The translations under genes and the position numbers were made by a program. Of a stretch of DNA of 61,231 nt, positions 39,751 to 56,482 are shown in pieces. Position 1 is the first letter of the stretch. The number at the start of each line of letters is the position of its first letter. Source of the DNA: Flavobacteriales bacterium (GTDB lineage Bacteria > Bacteroidota > Bacteroidia > Flavobacteriales_C > GCA-002722245); assembly GCA_947444925.1 (NCBI GenBank), contig CANFBW010000014.1, forward strand, positions 1 to 61,231, in the 5' to 3' direction. The notes beneath the pieces are model-generated. The model made no database searches and had not been told where the DNA came from. It saw only the letters and a program-made list of their open reading frames with translations.

Positions 39751-39802
39751 GCTCCAAAGTCAAGTAATATTGAGTATTTTTCATTTTTCTAAATAAGCAT
39801 TG

Positions 39803-40519
39803 ATGTCAAATTCATTTGTTATACGAGCCGAAACCCGAGGGCATGCCGACCATGGCTGGCTTAAAAGCCACCACTCCTTTAGTTTCGCCAATTACTATCA
39901 TCCCGACAGAATGCATTTTGGAGCCTTACGTGTGTTAAATGACGATTTTGTAATCGGAAGCGAAGGCTTTGGAGAGCACCCACACAGCAATATGGAAATC
40001 ATTAGCATTCCGCTGGAAGGAGATTTGCAACACCATGACAGCATGGGAAATGGCACTGTAATCAAAAAAGGAGATGTTCAAATAATAAGCGCAGGCATAG
40101 GAATTCAACACAGCGAATTCAATGCAAACGCAAATAAAGCAGTGAAATTTCTACAGATTTGGATTATACCTAAACTACAAAATATTGCACCGCGCTATCA
40201 ACAAATCAGTCTAAATGCTAGCGAACGAAAAAACAAAGCACAAATCATTGCTGCTCCAACTCCCAATGCAAATAGTGTTTGGATTAACCAAGATGCTTGG
40301 CTCTCTTTGCTAGATCTTGACTCAAGCAAGGACATCCACTACGACTTAAAGGCCGAAGGCAGTGGCGTATACATTTTCGTTCTAAAAGGAGGTATTTCTA
40401 TTGCACAGCAATTATTAAACGACCGAGATGCAATGGGAATTTGGAACACAAAAAAAATTCATCTCACCGCACACAGCGATTCTGAAATACTGATCATAGA
40501 AGTACCCATGCATTTCTAG
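39803..40519 (+). CDS. Pirin-family protein
   Basis: 238 residues from the ATG at 39803 (a TTG one codon earlier is less likely). Two cupin halves; the N-terminal half carries the metal-binding set HPHSNMEIISI and IQHSEFNAN, with the usual RGHADHGWLKSHHSFSF opening (about 10-26). Bacterial pirins of this length are quercetin dioxygenase-like or redox-sensing proteins; the substrate is unknown. Stands alone. Repeat copy 2 begins 40 bp after its stop. Confidence 0.92.
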   Translation: MSNSFVIRAETRGHADHGWLKSHHSFSFANYYHPDRMHFGALRVLNDDFVIGSEGFGEHPHSNMEIISIPLEGDLQHHDSMGNGTVIKKGDVQIISAGIGIQHSEFNANANKAVKFLQIWIIPKLQNIAPRYQQISLNASERKNKAQIIAAPTPNANSVWINQDAWLSLLDLDSSKDIHYDLKAEGSGVYIFVLKGGISIAQQLLNDRDAMGIWNTKKIHLTAHSDSEILIIEVPMHF

Positions 40520-40558
40520 CTATGGGACGAATCCTCAGGTACTAAAAAATTATTTAAT

Positions 40559-40767
40559 GATTATCCGGAATTGTACCAGTTGAATTATGTTTAGGGCCAT
40601 TGGTCCTTCGGAGTACCTCAGGAGGACAAATGCGAACGATTTTCCACATAGGTTTTTCGAGAATGATTGTCTTCGTGAGATTTGAGATTACGAGGAGAAA
40701 CAAAGTTTCGGTCTTTGAAGGACCTATCGCCACTTCTGTCAGAGGACTCGTACAATTTCGGACAATC
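40559..40767. repeat. Nested inverted-repeat element, copy 2 (209 bp)
   Basis: Same length as copy 1 and the same setting between two convergent genes, ending 4 bp from a stop codon. Outer arms are 40559-40580 and 40746-40767; a middle stem starts at GGTCCTTC (40602-40609); inner arms are CTCAGGAGGAC (40617-40627) and GTCTTCGTGAG (40669-40679). The 41-base centre (40628-40668) matches the copy 1 centre only when reverse-complemented (36 of 41). The segments between outer and middle stems are exchanged end for end, while the regions CTTCGGAGTACCTCAGGA and TGAGATTTGAGATTA stay in the copy 1 orientation. Confidence 0.85.
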
Positions 40768-40771
40768 ATAA

Positions 40772-41482
40772 TTATTTTTTTATGAATGATTCTTCCAAAT
40801 ACTTGGGCGAAGGATAATAGATAAAAAAACAAGTTCCACCTTCCATTATACTCACTATGTTTGCACACAAATCGGGAGACACGGCTGGGCAACCCAAACT
40901 TCTTCCAAGGCGACCATTATTTTTAATAAATGTTTCTGAAACATAATTGGCGCCATGAATAACGATCGCGCGTTGCTCCGCGGAACCATTGAAATTATTC
41001 TCAATACCACACAAGCGCAACGACAAGCCATGTCTACCCTGGTAACGATCTCCTGTAATATAAAAACCCAAACTCGATTGATTCGATTCCGCCACATTAG
41101 AAAAAGAGGTGGCAAATTCTTGCCCAGAATTTCTCCCGTGAGCAACGTAGCTTTGGAGAATCAAACTGTCTTTGTCAAAATCAATCAGATACAATCGTTT
41201 TGCATTGGAAGACTGTGTCATATCCGCAATGGCCAATACAGATTTTTGGGACAAGACTTTGCCATTCTTTAACTTCAAAAAACCTTTATAGGCGTGTTCA
41301 AATGCTGCGAAACTCAAACCAGCACTATCCAAACGAAGAGTTGTATACTTTTGCGCCACTGGATCACTAAATCCTTCTTCCGAAGCCACAGCAGAGGAAT
41401 TACCCAACACGTGCAAATGCGTTGGAATAAATAAGCAAAAAAATAAAAACAAATTGAATAAGAAACTTCTATTGTTAGTCAT
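40772..41482 (-). CDS. Exported L,D-transpeptidase, YkuD_2 (murein catalytic domain) type
   Basis: 236 residues from MTNNRSFLFN at 41482; the longer frame would put 11 hydrophobic residues before a second signal. The signal peptide ends near residue 28. The catalytic domain has IVIHGANY (His176) and GRSLGCPAVSP (nucleophile Cys198), the HG...SxGCP pattern of the YkuD_2 family common in Bacteroidota. It is likely to act on peptidoglycan stem peptides in the periplasm (cross-linking or protein attachment). A YcbB-type transpeptidase precedes it 58 bp upstream on the same strand. Confidence 0.88.
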   Translation of the reverse strand: MTNNRSFLFNLFLFFCLFIPTHLHVLGNSSAVASEEGFSDPVAQKYTTLRLDSAGLSFAAFEHAYKGFLKLKNGKVLSQKSVLAIADMTQSSNAKRLYLIDFDKDSLILQSYVAHGRNSGQEFATSFSNVAESNQSSLGFYITGDRYQGRHGLSLRLCGIENNFNGSAEQRAIVIHGANYVSETFIKNNGRLGRSLGCPAVSPDLCANIVSIMEGGTCFFIYYPSPKYLEESFIKK

Positions 41483-41540
41483 GGAGTCAAGATAAACTAC
41501 AAATGAAAAAATCAATATTCTTTAATTTTATTTAACATCA

Positions 41541-43202
41541 TTACAACAAAAGCAAGCCCTTCATCTTCGCATCGTGTCCATATACATCCTCTCTAAAATG
41601 CAATCTCCCATCTTTCGTCACCCATGCTGTAAAATAAACAATGAATATTGGCACTTTTGTTTTCAATCTCACATATTTTTCAACTCCACCATTCATCAGT
41701 TCAGTTATCCGATTTGGGGTCCAGGTACTGTCACCAAAAAGCAGGTGCTGAGCCAATTTAAAGGGCTCTTGCACCCTTATGCAACCATGACTAAAAGCGC
41801 GTGTGCTTTTATCAAACAATGACTTAGCTGGGGTATCGTGCAAATAAATATTATGTGTATTGGGAAATAAAAACTTTACCAAACCCAATGAATTCTCTAT
41901 CCCTGGTCGTTCTCTAATTTCATAGGGGACATTCCCCCTCGTATATTTAGTCCACTTAATACCTCCTGGATCAAGCACTTCCCCCTTCGAAAGAACTTCC
42001 ATGTTGTGCTCAAATAAGTAATTCTTGTTCTGTACAATTGATGGAATCAACTCTTTTCGAATGATGCTTTGCGGCACATTCCAATAAGGACTAAAAACAA
42101 TATATTCTACAGTATCATTGAAGATCACGGTTTCCGTGCTTTGTTTGCCCAGAACCACCCTGCAAGACCAAGCTAAACTATCCTGGTGAAAAACAGAGAA
42201 TTTATAATCTGGAATATTCACCATCAAATAATCACCTTTGAATTCATACGGCAGCCACCTACAGCGTTCCATATTAATTAACAATTGCTCAATTCTCTCA
42301 CGCAAAGGAATACGCAAGGCTTTTAATGTACTTTTATCAAGTAGAGAGTCACCCCTTAATCCATGTCGGATTTGAAACGAACAAATGGCAGCACCCAATC
42401 TTTCATCAAAAATAAGCGTACTGTCCTCCCCCAATAAATCACCCATAAGATACAGTTCACGCTTCAATGCACGCAAGAAAAATGAACTATCTCCTTTAGA
42501 CAAATTTGACAACTTCACATTGAGCTTTGGCAACCCACCACTTTTTTCAAGAGCAACATATTTCAATAATTTCTTTTTCAATCGAACGTATTGCCTAAAA
42601 ACTGGCTCATCGTTGGTGCTTTCTTGTGAATGACGCCTAGTCATACTCTCCAATAAAGCTACGTAATTCAATTTCTTACGTTCAATAAACCACCCTATTT
42701 CCATTGACTTGTATTCGGAAACGCCTTTCCAATTGTGTTCAGCATAATCAAAAAAACTAATCGTCAATAAAACATCCAATGCTAATTTCAATTGCTGACA
42801 ATTATTCAATTTGCAATGCTCATCAGTCACTTGATGGAACAAGTGCTTTAATGCCAAATCAGGATGAGCTGTTTTTAAATTGGAAAGCGCTTCGTCTTCT
42901 TCATAAAGCAGTATGAATTTTTTCGCAGCACTGTCAATACCTTCAGCGGTATACCAGGCGGGAACAAAATTCCTGTTGCGGTAAAAAATTAAGACACGTG
43001 TCTTCCATTCACTGTTTTCGATATGCTGCTTAAAAAAGTTCTCGATAAAAAGGGAATCAAATAGAACACGATTTGAGATTTCTTTATCAGACAAGGCCAC
43101 AACAGTTGTCTCCGAAACATTACTCCCCACCTCATTTTTTTGCAAATCACAACTTTGCATGAACAATCCCATTGCAAAAAAAAGAACCACAATCATCTTC
43201 AT
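41541..43202 (-). CDS. YcbB-type L,D-transpeptidase, lipoprotein
   Basis: 553 residues from the ATG at 43202 (MKMIVVLFFAM; ATG at 43196 also possible). The lipobox MQSC gives a lipidated Cys near residue 18. A helical scaffold domain (about 50-260) and a peptidoglycan-binding-like segment (CSFQIRHGLRGDSLLDKSTLKAL) are followed by the YkuD catalytic domain with IYLHDTP and AFSHGCIRV (His472, Cys474). This is the LdtD/YcbB architecture, which makes 3-3 cross-links. Probably co-transcribed with the smaller L,D-transpeptidase downstream. Confidence 0.92.
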   Translation of the reverse strand: MKMIVVLFFAMGLFMQSCDLQKNEVGSNVSETTVVALSDKEISNRVLFDSLFIENFFKQHIENSEWKTRVLIFYRNRNFVPAWYTAEGIDSAAKKFILLYEEDEALSNLKTAHPDLALKHLFHQVTDEHCKLNNCQQLKLALDVLLTISFFDYAEHNWKGVSEYKSMEIGWFIERKKLNYVALLESMTRRHSQESTNDEPVFRQYVRLKKKLLKYVALEKSGGLPKLNVKLSNLSKGDSSFFLRALKRELYLMGDLLGEDSTLIFDERLGAAICSFQIRHGLRGDSLLDKSTLKALRIPLRERIEQLLINMERCRWLPYEFKGDYLMVNIPDYKFSVFHQDSLAWSCRVVLGKQSTETVIFNDTVEYIVFSPYWNVPQSIIRKELIPSIVQNKNYLFEHNMEVLSKGEVLDPGGIKWTKYTRGNVPYEIRERPGIENSLGLVKFLFPNTHNIYLHDTPAKSLFDKSTRAFSHGCIRVQEPFKLAQHLLFGDSTWTPNRITELMNGGVEKYVRLKTKVPIFIVYFTAWVTKDGRLHFREDVYGHDAKMKGLLLL

Positions 43203-43458
43203 ATTTCTCTTCAAAAATTTCAATCAATTGTAACGAATGATTTCACTGCACACAACAACTATGACTAAGGTCACAAAAAGGACATTAAAAAAAGGATAGT
43301 GAGCACTACAATTGAAATGGGCAATAAATTACACACATCGAGCACATTAATGCGCAATTTCAAACGAAAAAACCGCCGGAAAGCCAGTAAATTCAATTGG
43401 TCCATAGTTTGCACAGACGGCATCAGAACCTTCAACCTACCAACACAAACTTCTTCAT

Positions 43459-44892
43459 ATGAGTTCTAATCATTCGCAATCACAAACGCAGTCAAATAAG
43501 CAGGGTTACTATTTGTCAACGCAACACATGCAATTCATGCAGCTTTTGCATTTGTCAGGACAAGCGCTAGACGAATATTTGCAAAATCAATTAGAAGAAA
43601 ATCCCCTGTTAGAAATTGCGGACAAAAATCCGGAAGACAACGAAAATACAGACAGTGAAATATTCGCAGAGGAATTTTATGATGAAGCGTACAAAGAAGA
43701 TTACAAATACGAAGAAAAGGCGTCCTTCAACTCAAAAACAGAAGATCAATACATTGCGCCTGCAATGCAGCTCGACACATTTTACGACAAATTAAAAACA
43801 CAAATTATTTGGATGCCAATTTCAGAGGAACTCAAAAAATTAGCTTACTACCTCGTTGATGCCTTGGATGAAGATGGCTTTTTAAAGAGAGACAACGACA
43901 GCATTTCATACGATTACAGTTTTAGCACAGGAGATTATGTTGACGCAACTGAAGTTGCAAAAGCCGTGAAAATACTGCAACAATGCGAGCCACCTGGAAT
44001 TGCGGCACGAGATCTTCGTGAATGTTTACTGCTGCAGTTGTCGGCAAAAAAAATGAAATCATCGGGACTACTGATTGCACAAAAAATACTCACCGATCAC
44101 TATACAAAACTATCCTCGCAAAACTTTCAAGCCATTCAAGAGAGTCTTGCTATAACAGGTGAACAACTAACTGAAGCATTACAAATACTGCAAACACTTA
44201 GTCCTAAGCCAAACGTTGAAAACGACAAATATGAAATATTTAGAAATCAAATTACTCCATCCATAGAAGTAGCATTTGATGGCCATGATTTCAGTGTTAA
44301 CATTGTCAATTCTAAGTTTGGAAATCTGGCAGTCAGTCAAACAATTGAAGAATTTACCAAAAGAGACTTTGCCAACTCGAAGATCGACAAATTAGAAAAA
44401 AAGTATTGGATCAAAATGGCCTCGGACGCGCAATGCTTAGTAGAAGCAATAAGGCAAAGAGAAAAAACAATGATGGCGGTAATAAGTGCGATATTAAAAC
44501 TTCAACTTGAATTCTTTAAATACGGAGACAAGCGATTTTTGCAACCAATGATATTAGACCAAGTGGCAAAACTTTCTTCCTGCGATATAAGCACTGTATC
44601 ACGAATCACCAGCAATAAATATGTTCAAACTGCCTTCGGTTGTTTTCTTCTAAAAGATCTTTTTTCAAGTTCATTGCATACCAGTGAGGGCCAAGTCAGC
44701 TCTCATAAGGTGAAAGAATTAATTGAAGAAATGATCAAGGGTGAAAACAAAAAAAAACCAATGACAGACAATCAAATTGTAAACGAATTAAAAATGTCCG
44801 GCATCAGCATTGCCAGGCGCACTATAGTGAAATACCGAGAACTACTTGGGATACCAAGCTATTCTTTGCGCATTCAAACAGTAAACATATAG
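43459..44892 (+). CDS. rpoN: RNA polymerase sigma-54 factor
   Basis: 477 residues. Region I is Gln/Leu-rich (QHMQFMQLLHLSGQALDEYLQNQLEENPLLE, split around 20-52), needed for activator response. A long acidic region II (about 53-110) follows, then the core-binding domain (ARDLRECLLLQL, LSPKPN) and the HTH (LSSCDISTVSRITSNKYVQT). The RpoN box near the end reads ARRTIVKYRELLGIPS. It heads a block with an NtrC-type activator and a kinase, which are probably its local partners. I found no convincing -24/-12 promoter (GG-N10-GC) in the window. Confidence 0.95.
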   Translation: MSSNHSQSQTQSNKQGYYLSTQHMQFMQLLHLSGQALDEYLQNQLEENPLLEIADKNPEDNENTDSEIFAEEFYDEAYKEDYKYEEKASFNSKTEDQYIAPAMQLDTFYDKLKTQIIWMPISEELKKLAYYLVDALDEDGFLKRDNDSISYDYSFSTGDYVDATEVAKAVKILQQCEPPGIAARDLRECLLLQLSAKKMKSSGLLIAQKILTDHYTKLSSQNFQAIQESLAITGEQLTEALQILQTLSPKPNVENDKYEIFRNQITPSIEVAFDGHDFSVNIVNSKFGNLAVSQTIEEFTKRDFANSKIDKLEKKYWIKMASDAQCLVEAIRQREKTMMAVISAILKLQLEFFKYGDKRFLQPMILDQVAKLSSCDISTVSRITSNKYVQTAFGCFLLKDLFSSSLHTSEGQVSSHKVKELIEEMIKGENKKKPMTDNQIVNELKMSGISIARRTIVKYRELLGIPSYSLRIQTVNI

Positions 44893-45049
44893 CATATTAT
44901 CGACAATACAAATCATCTATATTCACTGACGAATAAGGCAATTCATCAAACACAATGTAATAAAAGCAACACGATTTGTTCAAGATTTGTTACACACAAA
45001 AATTATCAGTAAATTTTACCCACCTAAGCACAAACACCTAACAATCTAG

Positions 45050-45064
45050 CACCGAATTTCGGTG
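45050..45064. promoter_or_regulatory. Palindrome before the NtrC-type gene
   Basis: CACCGAA-T-TTCGGTG, perfect 7-bp arms, ending 11 bases before the ATG at 45076. It could be an operator or an RNA hairpin that affects the ribosome-binding region. The 150 bases before it are A/T-rich without another feature. Confidence 0.45.
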
Positions 45065-45075
45065 GCATCCAGTTT

Positions 45076-46515
45076 ATGAAAGAAAAAATTCTGATTATTG
45101 AAGACGACCAAGCGTTAAGACAACTTCTTGAGCGTTTCTTGGCTTCAAATGGCTTCAATACGGAAGCCGCCGCCAGCGGAGCAGCAGGCATAGCTGCATT
45201 TCAAAAAGACCCGTCAAACATAGTAGTATGTGATTTCAAATTAGGCGACCTTGAAGCTACAGATGTGCTTCAAAAAATAAAGGAAATTGCACCACAAATT
45301 CCTTTTATCATTATCACAGGATATTCGGATATACGCAATGCAATCAACGTCATTAAACTAGGCGCTCTCGACTACCTCACAAAACCATTGATTCCCGAAG
45401 AACTGCTTCAAATCATCAAAAAGGCGCTACAGCACGAAATACATGAGGAGAGAGGCAATCAAGAAAAAACAAATAAAAAACAAAACAACAATATAAGCGC
45501 CTCCACTGGAAATAACATATTTAGCAATAGTAGTCAGTCTAAAGAGTTACTGCGACAAATTGAACTGGTGGCACCAACCAACTACAGCGTCATCATATAC
45601 GGAGAAAGCGGGGTTGGAAAAGAAGCCGTTGCACAAACCATTCACCGCAGAAGCAATAGGAGTAATGCACCCTTCGTCGCTTTAGATTGCGGAGCCATGT
45701 CAAAGGAGTTGGCCGGAAGCGAGTTGTTTGGCCATGAAAAAGGGGCCTTTACGGGTGCACTTGCAACAAAAATAGGCCAGTTTGAATTGGCTAATGGCGG
45801 CACCTTATTCTTAGATGAAATCGCCAATTTATCTTACGACATTCAGTCTTCACTACTTCGCGTTATACAAGAACGAAAAGCAAAAAGAATAGGTGGAACA
45901 AAAGAAATTCCCTTCGACGTTAGAATCATTGCAGCAAGCAATGAAAATCTAATAGAATGCTGTAAAAAAGGGAAATTCAGAGAAGACCTATTCCATCGAT
46001 TCAATGAATTTCAACTAACCATTGAACCTTTAAGAAAACGCAAAGAAGACATTCTTTTCTACGCCCAATATTTTTTAAAAAATGCAAACAAAGAACTCAA
46101 TAAGAGCATTGAGGGATTTGACGAAGATGTTGAAAATCTATTCGCAAATTATTCGTGGTACGGTAATTTACGAGAAATGAAAAACATCATCCGAAGGTCA
46201 GCATTACTAAGTGAAGGAAAAAATGTAAGTGCAAAAACATTGCCTAGTGACTTTTCAAATGAAGTAAAAACCAGCATGAAGCAAGACTTTGAAAATGCTT
46301 CTGAACTTTTAAACCAAATTCCCGCAGAAAAAAAGGAAAAAAAAACAAATTTAAAAGCGATTGCTCTTGAAGCCGAATACGCTATGATTATAGAGGTGCT
46401 AAAGCAGGTCAACTACAATAAAAGCAAAGCAGCCAAAATCCTGAATGTCAATCGAAAAACACTTTATAATAAAATGAGAAGCTACGATATCGAGGACAGG
46501 GAAATCAGTGAATGA
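45076..46515 (+). CDS. NtrC-family sigma-54-dependent response regulator
   Basis: 479 residues: receiver (about 1-120, phospho-acceptor Asp53 in VVCDFKLG, acidic pair Glu9-Asp11), sigma-54 AAA+ domain (about 145-380) with Walker A GESGVGKE (176-183), the sigma-54 contact loop GAFTGA (223-228) and Walker B GGTLFLDE (241-248), and a C-terminal Fis-type HTH (YNKSKAAKILNVNRKTLYNKM). It activates sigma-54 promoters when phosphorylated. The last bases overlap the kinase gene (ATGA), so kinase and activator are made together and form a two-component pair. Targets are unknown; the adjacent Cbp1-like lipoprotein gene is a candidate. Confidence 0.95.
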   Translation: MKEKILIIEDDQALRQLLERFLASNGFNTEAAASGAAGIAAFQKDPSNIVVCDFKLGDLEATDVLQKIKEIAPQIPFIIITGYSDIRNAINVIKLGALDYLTKPLIPEELLQIIKKALQHEIHEERGNQEKTNKKQNNNISASTGNNIFSNSSQSKELLRQIELVAPTNYSVIIYGESGVGKEAVAQTIHRRSNRSNAPFVALDCGAMSKELAGSELFGHEKGAFTGALATKIGQFELANGGTLFLDEIANLSYDIQSSLLRVIQERKAKRIGGTKEIPFDVRIIAASNENLIECCKKGKFREDLFHRFNEFQLTIEPLRKRKEDILFYAQYFLKNANKELNKSIEGFDEDVENLFANYSWYGNLREMKNIIRRSALLSEGKNVSAKTLPSDFSNEVKTSMKQDFENASELLNQIPAEKKEKKTNLKAIALEAEYAMIIEVLKQVNYNKSKAAKILNVNRKTLYNKMRSYDIEDREISE

Positions 46516-47948
46516 AAAAACAAAAAGCAATAAAAGTACTTTTGATTGAAGACGACGAAGATGACTACGTCCTCTTTAAAAAATTATTGGGGGATATAAA
46601 AAACATTCCCTACCAATTAACATGGGCATCAAACTATGAAAAAGGTTTGGCGCTTATCTCAGAAAAAGCCCATGATATCTATATTTTCGATTATCTGTTA
46701 GGACAAAACACGGCAATCGACTTGCTGATACACTGCAGAGCACTGGAAATCAAAGCGCCAATCATTTTGCTAACCGGCCTTTCAAATCAAGCAGCAGACA
46801 TAGCCGCAATGCAATTGGGCGCAGCGGATTTTTTAGAAAAAGGTGAAATAACCTCCATCACGTTAGAAAGAAGCATGCGTCATGCTGCTGCGCAAGGCGC
46901 CGTGTTGGAAGAACTGAAAGCGAGCGAAAAAAAATTTAGGGGAATTTTTGAACATTCATACGATGTGATCTATTTAGCCAAAGAAGATGGCACCATACTA
47001 GACATTAATCCCTCTGCGCAAAGGGTATTTGGTTACAGCAAAGTAGAACTACTAAAAATGAATGCCGCAAAGCTATACGACAATGAAGAAGATCGCATTA
47101 AACTTTTAAACGACGCACACAAAACTCAAATATCGTCAAACAACGAAATTGTATACCGAGACAAACAGGGCAATAAAAAACATTGCATAGTCAGTGCATC
47201 ATTCCAGGACACAGATGAATTCGGACAACCAACTTATGTCGCCGTAATTAGAGATATAACGCAGCGAAAAAAGATAGAAAAAGAACTGATCATCGCTGAA
47301 AAAAATGCAGTTATTGGCCGTGTTGTTCACACGCTCGCCCATGAAATAAGGAGTCCACTAGCCAGTATATATCTGGCGATAGAATTACTGCAAAAAGAAC
47401 TCAACCACGACCCAATGTACCTAGATATTGTTAAAAGAAGCTCCAGGCAAATCGACAGCATCATCAAAGAATTCCTGCAAAGCGCAACACATCCAGAGGT
47501 TAAAATGCAAAAGCATTCGATTGCAAAAATATTGACTGAAGCCTTAGCGCACGTTAGTGATAGAGCGGCACTTAACAACATCAGCATCGAGAATTCAATG
47601 AATGGAGACAATTGCAACATCATGGCAGATAAAGAAAATCTCAAAATCGCAATCGTTAATATTTTGGTTAATGCCATCGAGGCTGTGGAAAATAAATCAG
47701 GCCGGGTTAAAGTAAAGACAATTCAAACAGGAAAGATGGTCAATATTGAAATTGAAGACAATGGCACAGGAATTCCCGAGAGCAGCTTGAGCAATATCTT
47801 TGAACCCTACTACACCTCAAAAAACAATGGCATGGGACTAGGGCTGGCTGCTACGCACAACATCATTCATTCCCTTAATGGCACAATTGAGGTAGAATCA
47901 GAAGTTGGAAAAGGAACAAAATTCATCATTGGTCTCGAATGCATATAA
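46512..47948 (+). CDS. Cytoplasmic receiver-PAS histidine kinase
   Basis: 478 residues, no membrane segment. Receiver domain (about 6-125) with Asp60 in YIFDYLLG, PAS domain (about 137-255, FEHSYDVIYLAKEDGTILDINPS), HisKA with His277 in TLAHEIRSP, and HATPase with N box NILVNAIEAV, G1 IEDNGTGIP and G2 GMGLGLA. An N-terminal receiver means its activity is itself gated by another kinase; the PAS may bind a small ligand. The overlap with the NtrC-type gene by four bases identifies that protein as its likely output. Confidence 0.93.
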   Translation: MKKQKAIKVLLIEDDEDDYVLFKKLLGDIKNIPYQLTWASNYEKGLALISEKAHDIYIFDYLLGQNTAIDLLIHCRALEIKAPIILLTGLSNQAADIAAMQLGAADFLEKGEITSITLERSMRHAAAQGAVLEELKASEKKFRGIFEHSYDVIYLAKEDGTILDINPSAQRVFGYSKVELLKMNAAKLYDNEEDRIKLLNDAHKTQISSNNEIVYRDKQGNKKHCIVSASFQDTDEFGQPTYVAVIRDITQRKKIEKELIIAEKNAVIGRVVHTLAHEIRSPLASIYLAIELLQKELNHDPMYLDIVKRSSRQIDSIIKEFLQSATHPEVKMQKHSIAKILTEALAHVSDRAALNNISIENSMNGDNCNIMADKENLKIAIVNILVNAIEAVENKSGRVKVKTIQTGKMVNIEIEDNGTGIPESSLSNIFEPYYTSKNNGMGLGLAATHNIIHSLNGTIEVESEVGKGTKFIIGLECI

Positions 47949-48001
47949 GTGCATTTCGATTATCTATCCAAAAAAAAACGAACACACTTTGAGTGGCACT
48001 T

Positions 48002-48026
48002 TTATTTAACAGCGACAGTTAAATAA
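48002..48026. promoter_or_regulatory. Inverted repeat before the Cbp1-like gene
   Basis: TTATTTAAC (48002-48010) and GTTAAATAA (48018-48026), perfect over 9 bp with a 7-base spacer, ending 4 bases before the ATG at 48031. It could be an operator for a dimeric regulator or an attenuating RNA hairpin. The arms resemble the CarH-type sites (TTGTTTAAC) but the spacing differs. Confidence 0.45.
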
Positions 48027-48030
48027 TAAC

Positions 48031-48867
48031 ATGACGCCAACAAGGGCAATATTTTTTTGCACGCTATTGCTCATGAACAACAACTTTTGTTCATGCATGG
48101 AAAAAAGCATAGAAATCAAACAGATCGGTAGTTGTCGCACAACATCAAATGACAGTCAACCAAGGAACTGTGAAATCGATCAACTTTCTTTCGATCTTGA
48201 AGAAATACAAAATGATTTTGATTCAATAGCCAATGTACGCAACAATATTGAAAGTGCGCTAGAGAGCAGCAAAGTAATCAAATCAAACCGAAGAAAAAAC
48301 CAGCACAACATTGCACCAATCAACGATTTAACCGCATCAACGCTTAAAAAAATAAAACGTCTAAATCAAAAACTAAAACATATAGACCCACAACAATCAT
48401 TCATTCAAAAAAAAATTGACGAAATCAATAAACAACTATTGTACACAGGCAATCTAGTAGCGCTAAAAAACAAAGACAATATCTCAAAAACACACAGGAA
48501 AACTATGTACAAAGCTATAATTGAGGAAGAAAAAAAAACTTCACGTCGGAAAACAACACACAAATCCTACTATATTTTTGCAAGTAAAAAAGCTCTAAAC
48601 AGTAATAAATTAAGCAGTACTAAAAATACGATTTCACAACTTGGTCAAACTGAAAAAATGACTGCCACAATACACCATAAAGTTTTAACTGACATCGACT
48701 ACGTCCTAGGTACAAACATCTATTTCAGTTCTAAAAAACCAAAAATACTAAGCACGCACACCATATCCAGCTACAAACTTAAAAAAAGAGGAAACGCATG
48801 TGTTTTGAAAATTGAAAATCCAGATTTGTTTTGGAGCAAAAGCAAGCTACTTGTCATTGAAAAATAG
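48031..48867 (+). CDS. Cbp1-family (collagen-binding adhesin-like) protein
   Basis: 278 residues with a hydrophobic N terminus and a Cys-containing end of the signal (NNNFCSCME), so a lipoprotein is possible. A Ser/Asn-rich coiled-coil segment (about 50-155, including DLTASTLKKIKRLNQKLKHI) is followed by the conserved C-terminal domain: KSYYIFASKKALNSN, VLTDIDYVLGTNIYF, SSYKL and IENPDLFWSKSKLLVI. That tail is characteristic of the Bacteroidota Cbp1 family, named after a proposed collagen-binding glycoprotein; real binding is uncertain. The coiled coil is shorter than is usual for the family. Many Lys, Asn and Ser residues give it a composition unlike the flanking kinases. Confidence 0.75.
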   Translation: MTPTRAIFFCTLLLMNNNFCSCMEKSIEIKQIGSCRTTSNDSQPRNCEIDQLSFDLEEIQNDFDSIANVRNNIESALESSKVIKSNRRKNQHNIAPINDLTASTLKKIKRLNQKLKHIDPQQSFIQKKIDEINKQLLYTGNLVALKNKDNISKTHRKTMYKAIIEEEKKTSRRKTTHKSYYIFASKKALNSNKLSSTKNTISQLGQTEKMTATIHHKVLTDIDYVLGTNIYFSSKKPKILSTHTISSYKLKKRGNACVLKIENPDLFWSKSKLLVIEK

Positions 48868-49052
48868 GAAAATATTAAGGGTATTCAAAACACACTGTTT
48901 TCTAACAAATGAAAAAGAAAATTTCAATTGCTAAAAAAATACTCGCAATGTGAAATATCATATACAAAAAATGAAAAAACACACATCCTTTGTGCTTTTC
49001 AACCATGGCACATTTTTATCAAAGCAGTAGCATAACCTTTAAAAAAGAAAAC

Positions 49053-49172
49053 ATGAATGCGATGCAAAAAAAGAACTGCTTAATGTGCAGTAAAACAACA
49101 AAAAACAACAAACATTCAATTTTCAACCAAATCAATTCTTCTCAAAAAAGAAAAAAAAAGAAAAGAGAGTAG
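49053..49172 (+). CDS. Possible 39-residue Lys-rich small protein
   Basis: ATG at 49053 to TAG at 49172. An N-terminal CLMC pair is followed by a strongly basic tail (SSQKRKKKKRE). The upstream bases AAAAAAGAAAAC could serve as a weak A-rich ribosome-binding region, and a good terminator follows 45 bp later. In such A/T-rich sequence a short open frame is expected by chance, so the case is weak. The frame can be extended to an ATG at 48990. Confidence 0.3.
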   Translation: MNAMQKKNCLMCSKTTKNNKHSIFNQINSSQKRKKKKRE

Positions 49173-49217
49173 CCGTTCTTTGAAAGAACTTTCTAGTAAA
49201 GTCAACTACAAATTTCC

Positions 49218-49252
49218 AAAAAAAGGGGGCAACAATTGTTGCTCCCTTTTTC
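49218..49252. terminator. Strong terminator-like hairpin
   Basis: AAAAGGGGGCAACA pairs with TGTTGCTCCCTTTT around AATT, with A-run on the left and TTTTTCCTTTTT on the right. It ends plus-strand transcripts from the Cbp1-like region and could also work on the other strand. Confidence 0.75.
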
Positions 49253-49668
49253 CTTTTTAACAGGATACATTACAAATCACTTATGGGCGCATTGCGCGAT
49301 CACAACAATTAAATTAATCTTTTAACAAAAAGATTCGAAAAAGAAAGCACCATTTATCAAACTATTTCAACAAGCATTATTTTGATGGTATTTAAAATTT
49401 AGAGAAACAATCCATAATCAAGCTAGCAAAATTATCCTAACATCGATAGCACCTGTTCAGGTGCAATTCGCGAATATTACTTTGTTGAGTAACCATCCCC
49501 AATCGCACCAATTAATTTAAGTATATAACGATAGATCCTTCGTCAAATCACTATCATTGTTGCGGCCTATCAATACCTCAATTCAAAAAATAAAAAAAAC
49601 AAATCAAACGTAACTTCATTAAAACAAATTCAAATCAATTGTGGAATCACAAATTTGGATTTGCTAAA
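49253..49668. other. Gene-free A/T-rich stretch with one palindrome
   Basis: No supported coding frame. A perfect palindrome GCACCTG-TT-CAGGTGC lies at 49449-49464. The remainder is low-complexity A/T sequence. Confidence 0.4.
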
Positions 49669-49740
49669 TAGAAAAAAGCGGGTCCCCGCATTTAACCCGC
49701 TTTCTTCCCGCCCAGAAAGCAAAGCTTTTTGGGTTATTGG
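49669..49740 (-). ncRNA. Candidate small RNA: double hairpin with U-tail
   Basis: Read on the minus strand, a hairpin of 10-bp stem and 3-base loop (49711-49733, CCCAAAAAGC/GCTTTCTGGG) is followed by a second with a perfect 9-bp stem (49675-49703, AAAGCGGGT/ACCCGCTTT) that ends in a T-run, an ordinary intrinsic terminator. No gene lies upstream on this strand within 4.7 kb, so the terminator must belong to an unannotated transcript starting somewhere between 49740 and about 50050. The 5' end is not defined and no family is recognised. Confidence 0.35.
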
Positions 49741-50139
49741 ACTTTGTATATCCTTACGTTCTAAATCTCTTTAGACAAAAACGTTATTCGCTTTTGCATT
49801 CAATTTTAAAAAAACATACCAATACAAATCAATGGCTTTCCATAGGAAAATGACGCATTTGTTTCTCAACTTTTAATCAACTAATGACCAAATAATTACC
49901 ACATTAAACAAACAGAGACACACATTATTGCAGTTTCTGTCGCTATTCTGAAAAATACAACCATACAAGTACTAATGAATTTTTCACAATAGAAGGCACT
50001 ATAAACCCGCTCAACAAATTATTTTTCCCCTACGAATGTAATCAATAGAGGTTTAGTGATTGAGCCACCGCCACTCAGAAAAGTGTGTTGGCACAAAAAT
50101 ATAGCGCAAAGAGGAAAACACTCCAAAACACAACAACCA
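49741..50139. other. Gene-free A/T-rich stretch upstream of the membrane protein
   Basis: No convincing gene on either strand. It may contain promoters for the plus-strand signalling operon and for the candidate minus-strand RNA, but no box pair stands out. Confidence 0.35.
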
Positions 50140-50751
50140 ATGCGCCACAAAACCCATCAGTCGAAGCAAAATAAATCCATCAAATATCCAGCTTTTGAAA
50201 TGATATGGTTGCTAATTGCACTCGCATCACTATTGGTTCCCACTATACCTGTATCCGTCGTCATTGGAAGAAAACAGAAAATGCTAAACAACTCTACTAC
50301 AAATCACGGCTTACCTAAAACTGGAACGCATAATGAATTGCGACCAACCACAAAGCCGCTTGGAGAATATTCGTTCAATACAAAAAATATTGATGCAACA
50401 AATCATATAGCCACTGTATTTTCAAAACAGAAATCAAAATACAATGGGGAATTCACGAACCAACTGGGGACAAAAACGTCAAACTCAATGAATTTGGCAA
50501 GCACCCTCCCAAATAAAGACAACAACCTAGATGAAATTAAAATAAACCTAATTTATTTAGAATACCTCAAGGAGTCGTTAAGTCAGCATATTATCAATTA
50601 CAAATACTTAAGCCATCTAACAACAAGTACTCAACTCAAAAACTGGATAGAACAAAAAATAATCGAATATTCGCAGCAGCAAAAAGACATACAAAGTCTT
50701 CAAGAAAAACACAGCAAGTACAATGTATCAGACAATAGAAAAATAAATTAA
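50140..50751 (+). CDS. Single-pass membrane hypothetical protein
   Basis: 203 residues from the ATG at 50140 (a GTG at 50056 would add 28). A basic N terminus precedes one membrane segment (MIWLLIALASLLVPTIPVSVVIG, here split about 22-44), then a long Asn/Thr/Ser-rich linker (about 50-135) and a helical C-terminal part (LIYLEYLKESLSQHI; WIEQKIIEYSQQQKDIQSLQ). The positive-inside rule puts the C-terminal part outside the cytoplasm. No family recognised. It lies 55 bp before the ATPase-less kinase gene, so it may supply the sensor part that protein lacks; this is inference from position only. Confidence 0.55.
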   Translation: MRHKTHQSKQNKSIKYPAFEMIWLLIALASLLVPTIPVSVVIGRKQKMLNNSTTNHGLPKTGTHNELRPTTKPLGEYSFNTKNIDATNHIATVFSKQKSKYNGEFTNQLGTKTSNSMNLASTLPNKDNNLDEIKINLIYLEYLKESLSQHIINYKYLSHLTTSTQLKNWIEQKIIEYSQQQKDIQSLQEKHSKYNVSDNRKIN

Positions 50752-50806
50752 GTCGCAAGAAACAAAAGATATAAAAATGTATGCGCCCTGAAAAAAATGG
50801 AAGAAA

Positions 50807-52771
50807 ATGAAAAATAAAAAAACAAAACTGTGCGATGAGCTAGAAAGAATTTACTTACACTCATCTTTTAAAGAAAACCCAAAATTCATTACACTACCGA
50901 GATCCAAACATGAACAAGACATTTATTTACCGAGCGAATGGCGACTTAAAATCATATCTCCTATTTGCTCCAAAGCATATTTGTTCGAATATTTTGTGCG
51001 ACAAAATCAACCAACAATCAAAACACAAAAATGCGATGAAGCAAAAAAAATTCGTAATAAAATAATTCCTTACAAAATAATCTATCAAAACACATTGAAC
51101 ACAAAACCAATATTTAAAAAATCTCTATTAAGAGAAGAAAAAAAAAATTATTCATTCCATTCTGAAAAAGAAAATTCAGCTTCTTTATCACTGATCTCTC
51201 ACGAATTACGAACACCACTCAACAGTATTCTTGTACTAGCAGAACAATTTTGCAAAAACCCCGAAAACAACTTAAATGAGCAGCAATTAATCTATGCAAA
51301 AGCCATTAAAGATAGTGGACACGCATTGCTTAAAATTTTGAGTCATTACATCGAAATGAGTCGAATTGTTGGCAATTCAGATGTTGGCGGAAATTTTACC
51401 GAAAACATTGCCCAAACACTTTCGAAAAAAAATTTCTCAAATTTAATTTCCAGTGAATTTATTGACCCTACGAAAGAGAACTTACCCGCAACTATCGATC
51501 ACAAAAAAACCCAATTAACACATGAGAAAAACGATGAAAAAAGCGCGCAAAAAAAAGAAATTTTCGAACAGCATTCGCAGGTGAAAACGCAAAATAAAAT
51601 CGTTACAAAACATAAATTAGTAATTTTCGACATTGGCATCAATTCGGCCAAACAACTAAACACAATCGCAATAGAAAAAGGCTATGACACATTAATTATA
51701 ATGGAATTAGACTTGCTTTTTGAAGCCCTTTATCACTCAAATACGGCAGCAATATTCCTTGAAATAAATACTTTGGAATCCCTGGGATGGAAAGCATTAC
51801 AACACATTAAAAATAGTTTTCAGTTCAGGGGAATTCCTATCTATTTAAGCACCTCAAATCAGTTGCAGAAAATCTTGTTAAAAAAAGGGATCAATGCATT
51901 TATAAAAGATATAAACGACATGAAAGAATTGGAGCAACTTTTTCTTTCGATTTCAAAAAACGGCAATTCAACTAGCAAAAATATTTTGATTGTAGATGTG
52001 CGGAGAAACAAGCTTGAAAATTTCGATAAAAAATTCAGTATTGAAGGACTTAGTTTGCACATTGCCAAAAGCCTGTCTGAACTCCGTCAAAAACTCAAAG
52101 AACATCTCGATATAATTCTAATACTCGATCAAGAAGCACAAGACTGGGGGAAAGAAGTACCAAAACACATAAGAAGTATCGCACCCAATTGTATCATTTT
52201 ATTCCATTCAACAACTGAAACATTCCCGGAGCGAACAAAAAAAAATCCATATTTAAAAAGACAGACTGCAAGTGAGACGACACATTCCATTGATCAGCTT
52301 TTGGACGAAACGCTTCTCGCAGTAAATTTTAATCATAAACATTTAAGCAGCGAAAAAAAAAGAGTACTGGAGAACATCCGGATGAAAAATGACGTACTAA
52401 GTGGAAAAACAATACTCATTGTAGACGATGATGTGCGCAATGTTTTTGCCATCAACACTGTACTAGAAAGATTTAACATCAATGTAATTTCAGCAGATAG
52501 TGGTCAAGCAGCGCTAAAGCTGCTCAATGAAAATAAAAACATAGATATGTTGCTGATGGATATGCTAATGCCTGGAATGAGCGGTTATCAAACCATTAAA
52601 AAACTTCGCAGTCAAAACACGAAACCACACCTTCCTATTATCGCGCTTACCGCAATGACAATGCTCGGTGACAAAAAAAAATGTTTAGATGCAGGCGCTA
52701 ACGACTATATCAGCAAACCTATTAAAATGGATTTCCTCTTGTGGAAAATGAGAAATCACTTTTTGAAATGA
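50807..52771 (+). CDS. Hybrid-kinase relic: HisKA plus three receivers, no ATPase domain
   Basis: 654 residues. After ~120 Lys-rich residues comes a good phospho-acceptor helix, LISHELRTPLNSI (His132), and its partner helix (to about 188). The HATPase domain that should follow is absent: residues 190-268 are a low-complexity linker with no DxGxG or GxGLGL box. Then come receiver-like domain 1 (269-385, Glu319 where Asp is expected), receiver-like domain 2 (391-500, only one acidic residue in IVDVRR) and a canonical receiver 3 (534-654, Asp540/541, Asp585 in LLMDMLMPG, Lys637). The order HisKA-(HATPase)-REC-REC-REC is that of large hybrid kinases, so this looks like such a protein after loss of catalysis, yet the frame is intact. 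The next gene supplies a full kinase. Confidence 0.82.
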   Translation: MKNKKTKLCDELERIYLHSSFKENPKFITLPRSKHEQDIYLPSEWRLKIISPICSKAYLFEYFVRQNQPTIKTQKCDEAKKIRNKIIPYKIIYQNTLNTKPIFKKSLLREEKKNYSFHSEKENSASLSLISHELRTPLNSILVLAEQFCKNPENNLNEQQLIYAKAIKDSGHALLKILSHYIEMSRIVGNSDVGGNFTENIAQTLSKKNFSNLISSEFIDPTKENLPATIDHKKTQLTHEKNDEKSAQKKEIFEQHSQVKTQNKIVTKHKLVIFDIGINSAKQLNTIAIEKGYDTLIIMELDLLFEALYHSNTAAIFLEINTLESLGWKALQHIKNSFQFRGIPIYLSTSNQLQKILLKKGINAFIKDINDMKELEQLFLSISKNGNSTSKNILIVDVRRNKLENFDKKFSIEGLSLHIAKSLSELRQKLKEHLDIILILDQEAQDWGKEVPKHIRSIAPNCIILFHSTTETFPERTKKNPYLKRQTASETTHSIDQLLDETLLAVNFNHKHLSSEKKRVLENIRMKNDVLSGKTILIVDDDVRNVFAINTVLERFNINVISADSGQAALKLLNENKNIDMLLMDMLMPGMSGYQTIKKLRSQNTKPHLPIIALTAMTMLGDKKKCLDAGANDYISKPIKMDFLLWKMRNHFLK

Positions 52772-52791
52772 AATAGCACCAATCGCTTATT

Positions 52792-54066
52792 ATGGTAAAA
52801 ATTCTCTTAGTTGACGACAAAACAGAAAATCTTCTTTCACTAAAAAGTATTTTCTACAGTGAAAACTATCAAATTGTCACTGCAAATTCTGGCATGGCCG
52901 CCTTAAAAATACTGCTCACTGAATTAGATTTTGCGCTCATTCTAATGGATATAGAAATGCCTGAAATGAATGGATTTGAAACTGCTGCACTTATACACAG
53001 CCGAGACAAACTCGAACACATTCCCATTGTATTTATTACAGCACACAGTCATGCCGACACCCAAATTTACGAAGGTTACTTATGTGGTGCAGTGGACTAT
53101 ATCTACAAACCTATTCACCCGCAACTGCTTTTGGCCAAAACAAAAGTATTTGTAGAGTTGCACCAAAAAAACAGGCAATTGTACGAACAGGAACAAATAC
53201 TATTAGGTATTAACAAGCGCCTAGAACTAGCAAACTACAATATGTCGCGTTCTGAAAGTGAAGTAAAAGAACTGAATACCCAACTGCAAAAAAACATATC
53301 CGAACTGGAACTAAGTAACAAAGAACTTGATAGTTTCGCATACATGGTTGCCCATGACTTACAAGAGCCAATCAGAAAAATAAAAACATACAATGACCAT
53401 TTAAAAACAAAGTTAATCCAAGCTGATGAAGAAAGTTTGATGACCATTACTAAAACTCAAATTGCGTGCAAACGAATGCAACGATTAATCAATGAAATTT
53501 TTTCTTTCAGTAAAATCACAGCTTCAGCAGAACGCCAAACATGGAGCGATCTCAACGCACTCATGCATGAAGTGTTGTTGGACATGGATCTACTCATGCA
53601 GGAAAGCAATGCGATCGTAATTTTGAACCCACTTCCTTGCATGTTCGTTTATCCAAACCACATTAAATCACTCTTTTACAACCTCATAAGCAACAGTATT
53701 AAATACGCGAAAATAGGTTGTGCTCCAGAAATAAAAATTACATTCAGTCCAGTTACAACTGGTATGCAAAATGAAATAAATGAACCATATTGTACCATTC
53801 AATTCGAAGACAACGGAATTGGTTTCAATCAAAATTTAGCTGAAGAAATATTCTTGCTTTTCAATCGTTTGCAAACCGACAGGACAGGAAATGGCATTGG
53901 ACTTGCGATATGCAAAAAAATAGTTAGTCAACATCAAGGGAAAATTACTGCGACGAGCGAAATCAATAAAGGCAGCATTTTTAAAATCACATTTCCACGT
54001 GAATTAATTCGTGCCGAAAAAGACCTTCACCTATTACCGGTTAGCAAATACAGCACATCAAAATAA
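52792..54066 (+). CDS. Receiver-histidine kinase (REC-coiled coil-HisKA-HATPase)
   Basis: 424 residues, cytoplasmic. Receiver (about 1-120, phospho-acceptor Asp53 in LMDIEMPEMNG), a coiled coil (about 122-180), HisKA with His188 in MVAHDLQEPIRK, and HATPase with N box NLISNSIKYA, G1 EDNGIGF and G2 GNGIGLAICKKIV. Such receiver-kinases usually sit directly behind a large hybrid kinase and take signals from it; here the partner upstream (20-bp gap) has no ATPase domain, so phosphate flow may run the other way. Confidence 0.93.
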   Translation: MVKILLVDDKTENLLSLKSIFYSENYQIVTANSGMAALKILLTELDFALILMDIEMPEMNGFETAALIHSRDKLEHIPIVFITAHSHADTQIYEGYLCGAVDYIYKPIHPQLLLAKTKVFVELHQKNRQLYEQEQILLGINKRLELANYNMSRSESEVKELNTQLQKNISELELSNKELDSFAYMVAHDLQEPIRKIKTYNDHLKTKLIQADEESLMTITKTQIACKRMQRLINEIFSFSKITASAERQTWSDLNALMHEVLLDMDLLMQESNAIVILNPLPCMFVYPNHIKSLFYNLISNSIKYAKIGCAPEIKITFSPVTTGMQNEINEPYCTIQFEDNGIGFNQNLAEEIFLLFNRLQTDRTGNGIGLAICKKIVSQHQGKITATSEINKGSIFKITFPRELIRAEKDLHLLPVSKYSTSK

Positions 54067-54107
54067 AAATAAACAGCGTTCAAAAGCATAGAAAATATCA
54101 TTAAACG

Positions 54108-54527
54108 ATGAAGATACGCACTAGACCCATTGAAATTCTTTTGGTTGAAGACAACCTTGTCACACAAATGTTGGTAGCACACACCTTACAAAACTGGGAC
54201 GAAACGCTGCAAATCGATCTTGCTGAAAACGGTATTAAAGCAATTGAAAAAATGAAAATAAAAAATTACGACCTCATACTGATGGATCTTGAAATGCCTA
54301 TACTGAATGGCCATGCTGCCACAACCATCGTAAGAACGACATTTCCTGAACCACAAAAAAACACTCCTATTATTGCAATGACGGCAAATGCATCTCCTGA
54401 TGAATATGCGCGATGTTTCGACAATGGGATGAATGATTATCTTGCTAAGCCTTTTGAAGGACAATTACTTTTCGAGGCTATAACAAAAATAATTGCATCT
54501 CGAGACGAGACGCACGATCGCATATGA
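54108..54527 (+). CDS. Single-domain response regulator
   Basis: 139 residues, one CheY-like receiver: acidic pair in LLVEDN (Glu14, Asp15), phospho-acceptor Asp60 in ILMDLEMP, Thr in AMTANA and Lys in YLAKPF. No output domain, so it relays phosphate or binds a partner directly. It ends the three-gene phosphorelay unit (41 bp after the receiver-kinase). Its stop abuts the convergent waaA stop with no terminator between. Confidence 0.92.
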   Translation: MKIRTRPIEILLVEDNLVTQMLVAHTLQNWDETLQIDLAENGIKAIEKMKIKNYDLILMDLEMPILNGHAATTIVRTTFPEPQKNTPIIAMTANASPDEYARCFDNGMNDYLAKPFEGQLLFEAITKIIASRDETHDRI

Positions 54528-55751
54528 TTAAAAAATTTGTTCCCAAATTTTATCACTTGCCCCAGATTGGGCCTTCAAATAATTCAGTTGCTTAGCTTCA
54601 ATTTTCAACAAAAGTTCATCAGAAGACAATAGCATTTGTAATGCTTTTATAAAGTCGCTTTCGTTATAAATACAGTACCCAGTATTTAAATCGAGCATAG
54701 CTTGCGCCTCATGGAATTTATAGTGCTTTGGCCCAAAAACTACTGGCAATCCAAAACTCGCAGGTTCCAATATATTGTGAATTCCAGCCCCAAATCCACC
54801 ACCCACAATTGCAATATCAGCATATTGGTATAATGAAGACAATACTCCAATGCAATTAACAATAAGCACTCTTGGACAAGAAATACTTTGTTCAAGATCT
54901 GTCCACAAAACAGCATCTTTAAATTTCTTTTGCAAAGCGGAAATCGCAGCAGTTCCCACTTCATGAGGCGCAATAATCCATATCATTTCTGTAGAAAAAA
55001 CATCTTTCGCCTTCGCTAAAAAATCATGTTCCTTTTGCCAAGTACTTCCTGCGATGATCACTCTTTTACCTTTCAGCAAAACCTCTAAATAAGGAAAAGC
55101 CTTTGGCTGCTGAGCCAATGCAAGTACACGATCAATGCGCGTATCACCGGTAACCGTAACTTGCTCAATGCCAAAATCTTTCAGAATTTGCCTAGAAGCA
55201 ACATCTTGAACAAAAAAGTGAGTAAAACTTTGCCGCAAAATTGTCAAAAACCAAGTGCCGGAATTTTGAAAAAAAACATGCTCTTTTCTGAATTTTCCAG
55301 ATATTAAATATGTCGCAATTTTTTGCTCCGAAAGTACAGAAAGCATATTAAACCAAAACTCATATTTAATGATAAATACTCTTGTTGGCTGCACCTTGTC
55401 AATAAATGCCTTCATCTTAGATTTCTGATCCAAGGGAAGGTAGGTCACCCAATCCGCCAAAGCGTAATCTTTGCGCATCTCATAGCCAGATGGGGAATAA
55501 AAAGTTAGTAATATTTTTTCATTGGGTTTGCGCTGCCTTATCATCTCCATCAAAGGTCTCCCTTGCTCAAATTCACCTAATGAAGCACAATGAAACCAAT
55601 TGATAAATTCCAAGCGAGAACTATTATCAGGCAAACGCGCTATCAAATACTCTCGACCTCCAAGCCACAACCTAGCTTTAGCATTAAAAATAGACGCAAA
55701 TCGGATGAAGGCGCCGTATAAAAATATTGCTGCGTTATAAATAATTTGCAT
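54528..55751 (-). CDS. waaA: Kdo (3-deoxy-D-manno-octulosonate) transferase
   Basis: 407 residues from the ATG at 55751, which overlaps the stop of the preceding gene by one base; longer frames have no support. An N-terminal membrane anchor (MQIIYNAAIFLYGAFIR) is followed by a GT-B fold: WFHCASLGEFEQGRPL (about 50-65), the typical GE-G motif with catalytic Glu, and the C-terminal GGGFGAGIHNILEPASFGLPVVFGP (split about 315-340), the CMP-Kdo site. It adds Kdo to lipid A precursor at the inner membrane, so this cell makes LPS. Co-transcribed with an outer-membrane protein gene. Confidence 0.94.
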   Translation of the reverse strand: MQIIYNAAIFLYGAFIRFASIFNAKARLWLGGREYLIARLPDNSSRLEFINWFHCASLGEFEQGRPLMEMIRQRKPNEKILLTFYSPSGYEMRKDYALADWVTYLPLDQKSKMKAFIDKVQPTRVFIIKYEFWFNMLSVLSEQKIATYLISGKFRKEHVFFQNSGTWFLTILRQSFTHFFVQDVASRQILKDFGIEQVTVTGDTRIDRVLALAQQPKAFPYLEVLLKGKRVIIAGSTWQKEHDFLAKAKDVFSTEMIWIIAPHEVGTAAISALQKKFKDAVLWTDLEQSISCPRVLIVNCIGVLSSLYQYADIAIVGGGFGAGIHNILEPASFGLPVVFGPKHYKFHEAQAMLDLNTGYCIYNESDFIKALQMLLSSDELLLKIEAKQLNYLKAQSGASDKIWEQIF

Positions 55752-56482
55752 CAGTCCGTATAAAATTCTTCTTCCTTGGAAGTTACAAAGGCGGGAATAA
55801 TCCACGCCAATTGCAATCCAAAAATAAGATTAAAATGTTGGGCATCATCAGAGGTGTGATTAAAATAATTGTATTTTCTCAAATTACTTAGAAAAGCTTG
55901 TTGAACAAAAATATCGACAGAATAGTTAATGCGCTTTTGGGCACCTAAATGCCTCCAGCGCATAGCTTGCTGGAAAGCCGGTCCCATCGAAAACTGATCA
56001 TAGCCCTTGTCCATACCATTGACCAAAAAGGGCAAAGTTGCACCCAAAGAACGGAACGACAATACGTCTTGATATAAACCCATCCCGAACAGAAACTGTA
56101 AATCAGTAGATGCAGCTACAGACCAATTCTTGCCAACATTAAAATAAAAACTATTGCCTCTATAAAGAACCGAAACATCAGTCAATGAACCATCTATAGC
56201 AATCAATAAGCCTTGTGCTGTGCGTAACGCTGAAAATAAATCGGGACCTGAATAGTTGGCAAATAGGAAACGGTATTGAAGTTCAAAAACGATGTTTCTT
56301 TTGGTCTCATAAGTATAAGCCAAGCCCACAGCGCTAGCAAAGTCAGATTTATCGGTGAAGTTGGCATTGCCTGAAAAGCCACTGTACGAGAGGGCAAAAA
56401 AATGCCTATTCACTAGTGTTTGCGCCACAATAGAACCAAAAGAATTTACTAAAAACAAAAGGCTGAAAACAGAAATTTTCAT
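55751..56482 (-). CDS. Predicted outer-membrane barrel protein
   Basis: 243 residues, signal peptide ending SIVAQ, then alternating strands with aromatic girdle residues (FFALSYSGFSG, NIVFELQYRFLFANY, RINYSVDIFVQQAFL, NLIFGLQLAWIIP) as in an 8-10 strand barrel. No characterised family recognised. It shares its stop with the waaA start, so it is likely tied to LPS or outer-membrane biogenesis; that link rests on position. Confidence 0.75.
   Translation of the reverse strand: MKISVFSLLFLVNSFGSIVAQTLVNRHFFALSYSGFSGNANFTDKSDFASAVGLAYTYETKRNIVFELQYRFLFANYSGPDLFSALRTAQGLLIAIDGSLTDVSVLYRGNSFYFNVGKNWSVAASTDLQFLFGMGLYQDVLSFRSLGATLPFLVNGMDKGYDQFSMGPAFQQAMRWRHLGAQKRINYSVDIFVQQAFLSNLRKYNYFNHTSDDAQHFNLIFGLQLAWIIPAFVTSKEEEFYTD

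Follow-up and report, generated by a model that had tools for sequence, protein, structure and literature searches.

A HATPase-less remnant of a poly-HAMP hybrid histidine kinase beside a conserved partner kinase in a Flavobacteriales genome

We analysed a window of 61,231 nucleotides from the genome of a Flavobacteriales bacterium. In two relatives of the same genus (G002 and G004), a pirin-like gene has waaA as its immediate neighbour; here about 14 kb of additional sequence (40520-54527, no strand assigned) lies between the two (39797-40519 and 54528-55805). No tRNA was found between positions 38000 and 57000. One end of the insertion holds two minus-strand frames (40772-43223) that resemble L,D-transpeptidases by eye. 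The plus-strand genes that follow encode a second, divergent RpoN (sigma-54; 43459-44892), an NtrC-type sigma-54 activator (45076-46515) and a REC-PAS-HisKA-HATPase kinase (46512-47948). The rpoN gene is 33% identical to the other copy in this genome (G000:C43:6515-7948), and relatives with an rpoN match carry one copy. A strong terminator-like hairpin (49220-49251) separates this gene string from the next, which comprises the frame under study (50807-52771, plus strand; hereafter P0001), an intact REC-HisKA-HATPase kinase identified by Pfam and alignment (52792-54066, plus strand; hereafter P0002) that begins 20 bases downstream, and a stand-alone receiver identified by Pfam (54108-54527, plus strand) that could be a further phosphoacceptor. 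Two AT-rich frames were noted upstream of P0001, neither matching a Pfam family above the cut-off: 48031-48867, which has flat codon-position G+C and whose product is 33% identical over 108 amino acids to that of L143:5355-5894, upstream of the giant kinase of G281 described below, and 50056-50751, an orphan frame just 5′ of P0001 that encodes a possible membrane helix.

P0001 is an open frame of 654 codons, with an uncertain start codon, whose product has the order HisKA, linker, two degenerate receivers and one canonical receiver; all of its features lie on the plus strand. Residues 1-110 (50807-51136) are AT-rich and have no alignable homology to the GAF and coil region of relatives. HisKA (residues 127-187, 51185-51367; Pfam E-value 4.9e-10) carries the H-box SHELRTPLNS, in which His132 (codon 51200-51202) is identified as the phospho-acceptor by the Pfam domain and by alignment. 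A linker of 81 residues (188-268, 51368-51610) occupies the position that HATPase holds in relatives. REC1 (51611-51961) and REC2 (51977-52321) fall below Pfam detection and align along their full length with the receivers of full-length relatives. The only Response_reg match in the protein is REC3 (52403-52768; residues 536-645, E-value 4.3e-32), which retains every catalytic residue in the alignment (D540, D541, D585, T615 and K637). A single-sequence AlphaFold model of P0001 had a mean pLDDT of 33. The initial annotation, made from the letters alone, had described an intact frame with His132, Glu319 in the first receiver and Asp585 in the last, and the ORF, Pfam and relatives' alignment bear this out.

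We searched 395 genomes of the class, and 87 from a single order, and found full-length relatives class-wide. They are 2,001-2,299 amino acids long, and the best matches between their three consecutive receivers and those of P0001 reach E-values of about 1e-71; HisKA is 42-46% identical across 78-84 amino acids in most comparisons. Pfam scans of two relatives gave 11-12 HAMP domains followed by GAF, HisKA, HATPase and three receivers, a general plan similar to that of fungal group III kinases, and the N, G1 and G2 boxes are kept in 16 of 16 full-length relatives. In 17 of the 18 loci that we fetched, the giant is immediately followed by an ortholog of P0002 (38-54% identity); in the remaining one (G373) the contig ends just beyond the giant. 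Because of the receiver homology together with the P0002 synteny, we identify P0001 as a shortened ortholog of the poly-HAMP/GAF/HisKA/HATPase/REC-REC-REC hybrid kinases. With those of G281, G354 and G302 it shares an orthologous HisKA, three receivers in the same order and the 3′ neighbour, but it differs from the 2,001-2,299-residue kinases in its length of 654 amino acids, in having no HAMP array, GAF or HATPase, and in the degeneration of two receivers. The initial annotation had read its layout as that of a giant hybrid kinase stripped of catalysis, a reading that orthology and synteny uphold; P0001 is neither a unique design nor a new domain assembly, and the kind of kinase from which it comes was already known.

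The HATPase-less form is known from this one genome only. Searches of 60, 395 and 87 genomes, with some but not all of the shorter and partial matches inspected individually, turned up no second copy of it, and a scan of genome contigs returned only distant receivers. A frame of 544 amino acids in G304 has G1 and G2 boxes; it lies where the fetched DNA ends and starts partway through the ATPase domain.

In G281 the conserved neighbourhood extends further, for the giant/P0002 pair is followed directly by an ortholog of the NtrC-type regulator (62% identical to the gene here) and then by one of the REC-PAS-HisKA-HATPase kinase (48% identical). The 14-kb block therefore has the appearance of a sigma-54 signalling module acquired by transfer, of which the giant would be the only member to have shrunk. 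Since the module is absent from nine other genomes of the order, we infer that it was transferred in and that the giant was then reduced.

Relative to its full-length relatives, P0001 has lost about 1,500 residues, and each missing part was searched for separately. Pfam reported no HATPase family in P0001 up to an E-value of 1. When the linker (residues 188-268) was compared with the HATPase region of relatives, the HMM score was 1.1 bits, which 875 of 2000 shuffled sequences equalled or exceeded, and in pairwise comparison 64 of 300 shuffles scored as well; these two tests give no support to a diverged HATPase in this segment, so the absence of an ATPase domain claimed in the initial annotation stands. 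Neither was a degenerate ATPase-like C-terminal domain of the Spo0B, ChpT or PhyT type found in P0001 by HMM and pairwise shuffles. A GAF remnant in residues 1-45, hinted at by the multiple alignment, was not significant on testing: when residues 1-110 were aligned pairwise to the GAF region of relatives, 244 of 300 shuffles scored as well. By tblastn, no remnant of the HAMP array was matched upstream of HisKA within 47.9-51.1 kb, and the HAMP-like matches in the genome itself are about 26-33% identical and located elsewhere. We also considered that the missing half might be encoded at another site in the genome; the search returned just 24-50% matches to other kinases and to HAMP/GAF proteins, among which, surveyed together rather than gene by gene, no partner half was identified. 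Because the ATPase domain is absent, P0001 should be unable to phosphorylate its own histidine with ATP.

The first two receivers are both degenerate, as the initial annotation had held, but REC1 is more damaged than was claimed there. Glu319 stands in its phospho-Asp column, where the Asp is invariant in 16 relatives; of its pair of pocket acids only one member is left (D275-I276), and an Asp occupies the column of the catalytic Lys, a Lys lying one residue before it. In REC2, Asp441 is retained, but the Lys and one member of the acidic pair (D397-V398) are gone. It had been proposed that Glu319 makes REC1 a permanently active acidic mimic that fixes the state of a signalling hub. Pseudo-receivers commonly have Glu at this position, and in some of them it can mimic phosphorylation (PMC12632262); REC1 likewise has Glu in place of the phospho-Asp. 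Unlike the pseudo-receivers of that study, however, it also lacks an acid and the positioned Lys, the presumed binding partners of the mimic, and it is poorly conserved, keeping just 7 of 22 invariant columns and ranking among the fastest-decaying parts of the protein. For the first of these reasons an always-on REC1 is weakly founded, and we regard it as hardly credible.

To describe how P0001 and P0002 have diverged, both were compared with 16 relatives as a mean tree distance ratio. For P0001 the ratio was 9.4x in HisKA, 5.7x in REC1, 3.9x in REC2, 2.8x in REC3 and 1.38x in the helix before REC3, and the family-invariant columns kept were 44%, 32%, 55%, 69% and 67%, respectively. P0002 has diverged mildly (1.33x) and keeps 95% of such columns, and 100% in its HATPase. 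P0001 is thus accelerated in every domain, and most of its gene has a low G+C content (31-34%), which is consistent with relaxed constraint; the codon-position signal is weak in residues 1-125 and in REC1. These features, along with the loss of about 1,500 residues already described, the unalignable N-terminus and linker, and the adjoining AT-rich stretch with orphan frames, would be expected of late-stage decay, in which the module was transferred in, the giant became dispensable after other kinases took over, and large deletions followed in a frame that is not yet broken.

The frame itself argues against this explanation. We drove the DNA of a relative through the excess divergence by neutral mutation only, and across four domains of P0001 the simulation gave on average 11.8-14.5 stop codons, with a minimum of 4 in 600 runs; none is observed. 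The frame of P0001 was therefore held open by selection during most of its divergence, its 654 codons being free of stops where neutral change predicts 12-15 in four domains alone, although decay may have set in recently. Retention was also selective: the H-box is kept at 10 of 10 positions, against 28 of 64 invariant columns kept in HisKA (hypergeometric probability 8.7e-5), the catalytic residues of REC3 are complete, and the helix before REC3 is hardly accelerated. Viewed as a conservation gradient, constraint remains on the HisKA hairpin with its H-box and on REC3 with the preceding helix. The initial annotation had named, as a pattern speaking against its reading, relatives that carry the ATPase domain while this copy alone is deleted and evolves neutrally; the relatives do carry the domain and P0001 alone is without it, yet its frame does not seem to be evolving neutrally. 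On balance we consider decay rather unlikely.

A narrower reading holds that REC3 is the sole functional part, a dimeric response regulator under P0002, and that the H-box survives only as a dimer former. REC3 is the only part of P0001 that Pfam still recognises as a receiver, and its canonical residues are intact; dimerisation, however, does not explain an H-box kept at every position though the flanking helix residues have changed, and we judge this reading quite improbable. The same H-box contains an intact HELRT, that is, the H-E-x-x-T motif used in receiver dephosphorylation, with the Glu beside the His kept, so that P0001 might instead act as a phosphatase or phosphate sink, draining phosphate from the targets of P0002 or from its own REC3. 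Some kinase-like phosphotransfer proteins of Clostridia are mainly phosphatases (PMC11210211). In P0001, though, the part that such an activity would often need is missing. HisKA-type phosphatases often require the ATPase domain or its lid to bind the receiver. This possibility seems improbable to us.

We favour a role for P0001 in phosphotransfer with its neighbour. The kinase core of the conserved partner P0002 is intact, which makes P0002 the natural source of phosphate, and we consider it about an even chance that P0001 is a lineage-specific, kinase-derived phosphoacceptor or phosphotransfer partner of P0002. The phosphotransfer hub supplied by the adjacent kinase, as the initial annotation proposed, would fit the conserved and intact P0002, the complete H-box and the intact REC3. 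The more specific proposal, that an ex-hybrid kinase is now a HisKA-receiver phosphorelay adaptor without any ATPase-like domain, kept by selection and fed by P0002, we hold only tentatively. In the phosphotransfer-partner reading that we favour, the ancestral giant came with its partner kinase in one signalling module, as orthology and synteny show, and in this lineage the ATPase domain was lost along with GAF and the HAMP array. Most likely, P0001 would dimerise via HisKA, and intact P0002 would phosphorylate either REC3 at Asp585 or, in trans, His132. His132 and Asp585 may then trade phosphate with each other or with the receiver of P0002, the stand-alone receiver at 54108-54527 or the NtrC-type regulator, an exchange that would make P0001 a relay or a sink, with REC1 and REC2 now chiefly spacers.

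Two classes of known proteins offer comparison. The kinase-derived phosphotransferases Spo0B, ChpT and PhyT (PMC5898713; PMC3433190) provide a precedent, and share with P0001 a HisKA-type hairpin with a phospho-His (predicted in P0001), the absence of a working kinase domain and an origin from histidine kinases. ChpT retains a degenerate ATPase-like domain (PMC3433190), as does PhyT, whereas P0001 has no such domain, and three receivers follow the hairpin instead. In the split kinases CheA3 and CheA4 of Rhodobacter (PMC3591291), the phospho-His and the ATPase lie on two proteins, as they would here if P0002 phosphorylates His132; there, however, the phospho-His domain is P1 and neither half works alone, whereas P0002 has its own HisKA and receiver. 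Lacking the degenerate ATPase-like domain, and with a complete kinase as its partner, P0001, as judged from its domains, fully meets neither definition.

Spo0B, ChpT and PhyT are thought to derive from kinases through decay of the ATPase domain. To our knowledge, it is rare to see intermediates whose full-length parent is known and whose partner is still linked. For P0001, other genomes define the parent well, the conserved partner kinase adjoins it, and the H-box and the last receiver are retained. If the adaptor reading is true, P0001 would be a natural intermediate between kinase and phosphotransferase; if it is merely decaying, it would provide a clean case of the stepwise loss of a giant sensor following module transfer.
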